Below are positions 8,536-10,312 of a stretch of 64,000 nucleotides of DNA, piece by piece. Origin of the DNA: Paracoccus sp. (in: a-proteobacteria) (GTDB lineage Bacteria; Pseudomonadota; Alphaproteobacteria; Rhodobacterales; Rhodobacteraceae); the NCBI RefSeq assembly GCF_030604785.1, contig NZ_JAUVVF010000006.1, positions 35,641-99,640 on the forward strand, in the 5' to 3' direction. Under the pieces are notes generated by a model. The model did not search any database and was not told where the DNA came from. It worked only from the letters and a program-made list of their open reading frames with translations. Position 1 is the first letter of the stretch. Each line of letters starts with the position of its first letter. The position numbers and the translations under genes were made by a program.

Positions 8536-9003
8536 TCAGAACTTGATGATCACGGCACTCACGATCGCCACCATCAGCAGCGTCGGAACCTCGTTCATCA
8601 TCCGGTAATGGCGCCCCTTCTTCGCCGCGCCCGCCTTCAGGCGCCGCGTCTCGCGCACGCACCAGATGTGAAACGCCGTCATGCCCAGAACGCCGGCCGC
8701 CTTGACCCAAGGCCAGGCGAAGTCCCAGCCGACGATCCCCGGAACAGAAACCAGCGTCAGCCCGCTCAGCCATGTGGCGATCATCGCGGGACGCATGATC
8801 AGCCGCATCAGTTTGTCTTCCATGATCAGAAGGCTCGCCACCGGCTCGGCCTGACCGGCATGGCGTTCCGAATGATAGACGAAAAGCCGGGGCAGATAGA
8901 ACAGTGCCGCCATCCAGGCGATCACGGACATCACGTGAAACGCCTTCACGTAGGGATAGGTCAGCACAAGCCAGTCGAGCATCAGAGCCTCTTTCTTCTT
9001 CAC
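8536..9003 (-). CDS. hemJ: Protoporphyrinogen oxidase HemJ
   Basis: LTYPYVKAFHVMSVIAWMAALFYLPRLFVYH, typical HemJ; start may be the internal MLDWL. Confidence 0.92.
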   Translation of the reverse strand: MKKKEALMLDWLVLTYPYVKAFHVMSVIAWMAALFYLPRLFVYHSERHAGQAEPVASLLIMEDKLMRLIMRPAMIATWLSGLTLVSVPGIVGWDFAWPWVKAAGVLGMTAFHIWCVRETRRLKAGAAKKGRHYRMMNEVPTLLMVAIVSAVIIKF

Positions 9004-9442
9004 TTAAATATAAGAAGGAAAGAAAAGGATGTTGTAGATGTAGGCCCTGTGCATAGCGGGATTGCGGCAAAAGGCCCACGAAAATCCCCAGATCCACCTG
9101 ATGTGGACAGCCCTTGCCAACGGCCGCCTTCTAGCAAAAAGATCTTTATATTTCAATAACCAATCCTGTGGATAAGTTCGGGGATATTTTCCGGGGCGCC
9201 GGCCTGTCCACAGTTCGGCACGATCACCGTCCCGGGATGTCCACCTGTGGATCGCACGCAGCCGTTCCTGATTTGTCCGGGGCGGAATCCAGGCCCCTCG
9301 GCATCCGACCCGATTCCTGCCCATGATTCGACCCGATTCCCGCTCAGATTCGTCCACAGCCTGCGCCGTCCTTGCCACAGCGCGGGCTCTGTGCAGGGTC
9401 AGCAGGCTTTCTTCCTGCGCCGAAGCCGCTTAACCTGCGGAC
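9004..9442. other. oriC: Probable chromosomal replication origin (oriC) in the hemJ/aroE intergenic region
   Basis: Perfect DnaA box TGTGGATAA (revcomp TTATCCACA) at 9167-9175, degenerate boxes near 9104, 9204, 9246 and 9348, AT-rich stretch 9135-9164, divergent gene orientation on both sides, parAB/parS within 8 kb. Confidence 0.78.
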
Positions 9443-10312
9443 ATGTCAACACATTCAGAGCATGCGATGTCAGAAGAGGCCTCAATCCGGCACGCACCCC
9501 TGGCCGGAGTGATCGGACTACCGATCGCGCACTCCCGCTCGCCCCGGCTGCATGGTCACTGGCTTCGGCGCTATGGTCTGCCGGGTCACTACATCCCGAT
9601 GCCCGTCCTGCCCGAGCATCTGGCCGAAGTGCTGCGGGTCCTGCCGCAGGCCGGCTTTGTCGGCCTCAATGTCACGATCCCGCACAAGGAAGCCGTGCTG
9701 ACGCTGGCCGATACCGTGACGGATCGCGCGGCGCTGATCGGCGCGGCCAACACGTTGATCTTCCGCCCGGACGGCAAGATCCACGCCGACAACACCGACG
9801 GCTACGGCTTCATCGCCAATCTGCGCCAGAATGCGCCCGACTGGGCGCCCGAGGCCGGCCCCGCCGCGGTGATCGGCGCAGGCGGCGCTGCGCGTGCCGT
9901 CGTCGCCTCGCTGCTGGATTCCGGCGTTCCCGAACTTCGCATCGCCAACCGCACCCGGCTGCGCGCGGAACAGATCAAGGCCGAATTCGGCGCGCGTCTG
10001 GTCGTCTATGAATGGGCGCAACTGGGCAACATGCTGGACGGGGCCGCGACGGTGGTGAATGCGACCTCTCTGGGGATGGAGGGCAAGCAGCCGCTTCGGG
10101 TGCCGCTGGATGCGCTGTCGCCCGACGCGCTGGTCACCGACCTCGTCTATACCCCGCTGATGACCCCCCTTCTGACCGAGGCGCAGGAACGCGGCTGCCG
10201 CATCGTGGACGGGTTGGGCATGCTGCTGCATCAGGCTGCGCCGGGATTCGAGCGCTGGTTCGGCCACCGGCCCGAGATCGACGACGAGACCCGCCGGGTC
10301 GTTCTGGGATGA
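9443..10312 (+). CDS. aroE: Shikimate dehydrogenase
   Basis: GVIGLPIAHSRSPRLHGHWL, NVTIPHKEAV, NTDGYGF, GAGGAARAVV. Confidence 0.97.
   Translation: MSTHSEHAMSEEASIRHAPLAGVIGLPIAHSRSPRLHGHWLRRYGLPGHYIPMPVLPEHLAEVLRVLPQAGFVGLNVTIPHKEAVLTLADTVTDRAALIGAANTLIFRPDGKIHADNTDGYGFIANLRQNAPDWAPEAGPAAVIGAGGAARAVVASLLDSGVPELRIANRTRLRAEQIKAEFGARLVVYEWAQLGNMLDGAATVVNATSLGMEGKQPLRVPLDALSPDALVTDLVYTPLMTPLLTEAQERGCRIVDGLGMLLHQAAPGFERWFGHRPEIDDETRRVVLG

Follow-up and report, generated by a model that had tools for sequence, protein, structure and literature searches.

Clustered GANTC sites at a probable Paracoccus chromosome origin as a candidate array of weak DnaA boxes

Five GANTC sites lie within 67 bp of the hemJ-aroE intergenic region of a Paracoccus genome. 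We read this patch as a clade-specific array of weak DnaA boxes beside a strong one, probably methylated by CcrM, and give this reading, which is drawn from sequence comparison, a probability of roughly one half. Within the Paracoccus chromosomal origin, the patch would form the arm facing aroE, with weak repeats of GAT followed by TCnnnCnnn that run head-to-tail into the stronger DnaA box at 9350-9358. DnaA would nucleate on the strong box and, if it binds the weak repeats, spread over them cooperatively. CcrM very probably methylates the sites, which would then be hemimethylated after each initiation. That the sites exist for the sake of this methylation is less likely than that it is a passenger or mildly tunes DnaA binding.

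The hemJ-aroE region as a probable oriC

The window, i.e. the whole stretch of DNA that was analysed, comprises 64,000 nucleotides from a genome whose closest relative with a species name is P. bogoriensis, with 94% identity in AroE. Gene order at the locus is rho, hemJ (minus strand), the intergenic region, then aroE, coaE and dnaQ (plus strand). The intergenic region is very probably oriC, because it contains a DnaA-box cluster of its own and relatives carry box clusters at the same locus. Six DnaA-box-like 9-mers with at most two mismatches fall within 9048-9358, an intergenic box cluster of the kind by which an oriC is recognized. Between two and seven boxes (at most one mismatch) are present in 83 of 85 Paracoccus hemJ-aroE regions. 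In the 400 kb sampled from a complete relative (G047), no 450-bp stretch other than this region holds four boxes (at most one mismatch).

GC skew is too weak to place the origin decisively: G047 shows a weak and coarsely resolved sign change between 3.12 Mb and the first 60 kb, with aroE at 73 kb, and the cumulative minimum of the window lies elsewhere than at 9.3 kb. The hemJ-aroE region contains no CtrA site (TTAA-N7-TTAA, at most one mismatch). An RNA element was rejected after an Rfam search of the region returned no match. Features of the region are collected in the table.

Features of the hemJ-aroE region. Positions refer to the window; offsets are counted from the DnaA core TCCACA at 9353.
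Feature	Position	Strand	Remark
hemJ-aroE intergenic region, probable chromosomal origin oriC	9004..9442		DnaA-box cluster
A+T-rich stretch adjoining perfect DnaA box, candidate unwinding element	9137..9163		sequence reading; putative role
Perfect DnaA box TGTGGATAA	9167..9175	+	box search
GANTC site 1 (GAATC)	9285..9289		outlying; offset -68
23-bp tandem near-duplication, ATCCGACCCGATTCCTGCCCA / ATTCGACCCGATTCCCGCTCA	9303..9346	+	86%; repeat family D2
GANTC site 2 (GATTC)	9312..9316		offset -41; 5' end of weak DnaA-register 9-mer
Weak DnaA-like 9-mer TCCTGCCCA	9315..9323	-	offset -38
17-mer TGATTCGACCCGATTCC, clade-specific origin motif	9324..9340	+	contains the 9325/9335 pair
GANTC site 3 (GATTC)	9325..9329		offset -28
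GANTC site 4 (GATTC)	9335..9339		offset -18; most conserved of the five
Weak DnaA-like 9-mer TCCCGCTCA	9338..9346	-	offset -15; 12 bp head-to-tail from strong box
GANTC site 5 (GATTC)	9347..9351		offset -6; overlaps first two bases of strong DnaA box; GATTCGTCCACA
DnaA box TCGTCCACA	9350..9358	-	core TCCACA at 9353, zero point of offsets

The GANTC patch and its conservation

A preliminary description of this DNA had located the five sites, and its coordinates agree exactly with the letters. The baseline it applied, one GANTC per 256 bp, is unsuitable, since GANTC is strongly avoided in the whole window: 68 sites are present versus 299 +/- 17 in dinucleotide shuffles, a roughly fourfold deficit. 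By composition the intergenic region (439 bp) is richer, with a mean of 1.95 sites per shuffle, and a total of five is only mildly high (P = 0.037, 20,000 shuffles). The packing of all five within 67 bp is far rarer (P = 1e-4, 20,000 shuffles), so that the comparison with a shuffled background proposed at the outset bears out the cluster.

No other cluster of at least three GANTC within 67 bp exists in the window. Genome-wide, clusters were sought by spaced patterns, as GANTC triples with short gaps; coverage was partial for triples starting with GACTC and ending with GACTC or GAGTC. The patch is the densest cluster these searches detected in the 3.14 Mb assembly, and they found no second five-site cluster there. 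Other triples were located upstream of ccrM (three sites), at C48:26178-26240 (four sites), at C13:21300 (three sites, intragenic) and in a three-copy repeat. The four sites on C48 (L228:2679-2741; G000:C48:26178-26240) span 63 bp in the gap between two ORFs, one resembling an ATP synthase delta subunit and the other a methyltransferase.

To what extent do relatives share the patch? Regions upstream of aroE were taken from 110 Paracoccus genomes. The hemJ-aroE arrangement is intact in 85, and 76 of these loci have a recognizable core TCCACA (9353 in the window), 85-190 bp before the aroE anchor. The offset of interest was picked out in the window before it was tested in the relatives, which are related and hence non-independent genomes; contexts were only crudely de-duplicated, by removing similar ones. 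GANTC occupies offset -18 (9335) in 34 of the 76 origins, compared to a mean of 2.5 and a maximum of 8 for rotated or shuffled sites. Offset -28 (9325) is occupied in 16 of 76, and offsets -68, -41 and -6 (9285, 9312 and 9347) in four to six each, with six for -68. P. bogoriensis has four of the five sites; most members of the clade have one or two, and many other species lack them all. Conservation among relatives, on which the preliminary description made its proposal depend, thus holds for 9335 and for the 9325/9335 pair, but not for the full cluster. The pair would be an old feature of one Paracoccus clade, to which the remaining GATTC sites were probably added by the 23-bp near-duplication and by a change in the 5' bases of the strong box.

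The notion that Paracoccus origins are packed with GANTC as a rule was dropped. The excess over shuffled expectation is only 1.31x, ranking behind ATNAT, GCNGC and AGNCT; in origins of other genera it amounts to 1.12x.

The sequence around the conserved pair is more constrained than the GANTC motif itself. Of 121 Paracoccus genomes, 15 have a single copy of the 17-mer TGATTCGACCCGATTCC, without exception just upstream of aroE; one-mismatch matches among 199 family genomes number only four, scattered and outside the source genome. Across 12 loci, a block of 39 bp, from the pair through the DnaA box, never shows more than two changes; the remaining region has diverged. All 34 origins with GANTC at -18 have T as the central N, and the flanks are kept as well (CCGATTCCnCC), indicating that selection acts on more than methylatability.

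DnaA register, methylation and other readings

Which protein could impose this constraint? In 38 origins that lack GANTC at -18 and one base to either side, DnaA similarity peaks at -15, which ranks second only to the strong box among the offsets (z = 3.3); examples are TTATCCGCG, TTGTCCCCG and CTATCCCCA. Where GATTC is present at -18, it overlaps the 5' end of this -15 9-mer. The window sites at -6, -18 and -41 each start three bases before a 9-mer in DnaA register (-3, -15 and -38). The patch can be parsed as repeats of GAT followed by TCGTCCACA, TCCCGCTCA, TCGACCCGA and TCCTGCCCA, the first strong and the others weak, an array that reads as having arisen partly by the 23-bp near-duplication. 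A methylation switch accounts for the conservation pattern no better than a DnaA-binding repeat array does. Left unexplained by the DnaA reading is why the site at -28 is always spelled GATTC; the weak 9-mers, moreover, agree with the DnaA consensus at only about five to six of nine positions and could therefore bind something else.

Such a ligand might be an origin protein, IHF-like or specific to the clade, that recognizes GATTCGACCCGATTCC with its two GATTC half-sites one helical turn apart. The 10-bp spacing would suit it, as would a 17-mer that is invariant in 15 species and unique in each genome, and the block CCCATGATTCGACCCGATTCCCCCCGGATCTTATCCACA, which shows zero to two changes in its 12 loci. 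We consider this reading doubtful: the block runs on into the DnaA box, and where its second half lies, other species have the -15 DnaA-like box.

Could the sites instead gate initiation through their methylation, as the preliminary description suggested? In such a scheme, hemimethylated GANTC would keep DnaA off the weak boxes until remethylation by CcrM, in the manner of Dam and SeqA in E. coli. CcrM, whose presence the suggestion requires, is encoded in the genome, as an N6_N4_Mtase plus RAMA protein. The best NCBIfam match of this candidate is the Caulobacter CcrM model, at 629.8 bits and below the model's cut-off of 830; a RAMA match is found in 119 of 121 Paracoccus genomes. GcrA is encoded as well and, like CcrM, outside the oriC locus. 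Together with the oriC context and the common phase in which GANTC overlaps the DnaA-register boxes, these genes speak for a gate. So does the composite GANTCNYCCACA, GANTC-N-(T/C)CCACA, which occurs once in the whole genome, at oriC, and so does the rank of -6 as the top GANTC offset at DnaA cores (12 de-duplicated contexts versus a mean of 2.05). Precedents come from E. coli, where SeqA blocks weak DnaA sites overlapping GATC (PMC4285127), and from the Agrobacterium ori2 (PMC11514494).

A control for the flanks of DnaA boxes weakens this case. GANTT at -6 is more enriched than GANTC, with 28 contexts (z = 15) versus 11. A GA flank showed no significant association with C rather than T at the second base of the box (odds ratio 1.9, Fisher p = 0.17), nor did it when TCCACA boxes alone were considered (odds ratio 1.2, p = 0.62). 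GANTC at DnaA boxes is thus explained by a general preference for a GA flank, and the overlap alone shows no selection for methylation. By this test, the overlap does not exceed the boxes' own sequence preference, as an arrangement of the Dam/SeqA type should. The composite was consequently abandoned as proof of such selection, given the stronger enrichment of GANTT and the lack of an association between GA and C. The flank preference is also visible on its own: Paracoccus DnaA boxes favour a GA that precedes the TCCACA core by five to six bases, giving the extended box GAnTTATCCACA, and GA precedes 45 of 238 boxes in Paracoccus hemJ-aroE regions versus 16 of 132 in other genera.

Three further observations count against a gate. 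Methylation does not require the invariant N at -18, the array is absent from most Paracoccus origins, including those of many sister species, and in Caulobacter the control of initiation is normal after deletion of ccrM (PMC3973325). The suggestion of methylation-sensitive initiation therefore keeps its genes, its origin and its register, but loses ground to the invariant T, the kept flanks and the flank control, and we regard it as unlikely. Somewhat fainter still is the prospect that a Paracoccus clade placed CcrM sites at the 5' end of its weak-box array, with the effect that DnaA assembly is delayed by hemimethylation after initiation. If true, a DnaA-type origin would show, with GANTC and CcrM, the equivalent of the Dam/SeqA sequestration of E. 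coli. We know of no SeqA-like reader of GANTC.

The preliminary description also offered control of aroE-coaE-dnaQ transcription, which in its specific form would make GANTC the GcrA site of a GcrA/CcrM-controlled promoter. The genome has gcrA, and TGATTCG (9324-9330) fits the extended GcrA motif YGAKTCG (PMC7987155), but only this one of the five sites (9325) does so. The sites lie 92-158 bp upstream of the aroE start codon, and 8950-9500 contains no sigma-70-like promoter pair, the element expected of a GcrA-dependent promoter. The ccrM promoter of the genus is also built differently, with GANTC around a TTGAC element and a variable N. Control of these genes through the sites is unlikely, and the GcrA promoter very much so. 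A search of the locus for an aroE promoter or terminator likewise found none.

A functionless chance cluster enlarged by the local 23-bp duplication is the least credible explanation, since, despite the near-duplication, the mildly raised total and the rarity of 9285, 9312 and 9347 in relatives, the 9325/9335 pair is kept in register across species with diverged flanks.

Related origins and the ccrM promoter

The putative weak-box array resembles several described systems in part. Cori of Caulobacter crescentus is likewise an alphaproteobacterial origin with GANTC and weak DnaA boxes, the G- and W-boxes (W = TCCCCA), which need a neighbouring stronger site (PMC3973325, PMC4468827, PMC4285127). 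Unlike Cori, the Paracoccus region lacks a CtrA site, and it carries a GATTC array, spaced at 10-13 bp, that is particular to a Paracoccus clade. E. coli oriC also has methylation sites over weak DnaA boxes (PMC4285127), but these are GATC sites for Dam, whereas the Paracoccus patch carries GANTC with predicted methylation by CcrM. The repABC ori2 of Agrobacterium tumefaciens shares clustered GANTC, and CcrM affects its initiation (PMC11514494); ori2 belongs to a repABC module, whereas the Paracoccus origin is of the DnaA type.

The role of GANTC in alphaproteobacterial origins has been a question since Caulobacter, where loss of CcrM spared initiation. Paracoccus offers a natural comparison at one locus, with species that have four to five phased sites, the conserved pair, a single site or none. 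With this series, simple site changes would suffice to separate DnaA binding from methylation. As markers of the Paracoccus origin, both the 17-mer and the GA-flanked box are of use.

In 25 Paracoccus genomes (L132, L135, L136, L138, L139 and 20 other loci) aroE lacks an upstream hemJ; no DnaA box (at most one mismatch) lies in the 1.5 kb before aroE in 24 of these. The absence of both indicates that the origin is separated from aroE in those genomes.

The ccrM promoter itself (L230:2778-2816; G000:C50:33777-33815) has the arrangement GATTC-N18-GANTC-N6-GANTC around a TTGAC element. All three sites are found in 29 of 30 Paracoccus loci, one locus being without the middle site, and spacing is nearly fixed while N varies at the second and third sites. 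Fixed spacing with a free N is the pattern expected if methylation itself is kept, and the triple is likely to be a CcrM autoregulation module, judging from its sequence. CcrM/GcrA promoters such as this one resemble the origin patch in having several GANTC a few bases apart. They differ in that their N varies and their spacing is fixed around TTGAC, whereas the oriC patch, next to a DnaA box, keeps both N and flanks constant.
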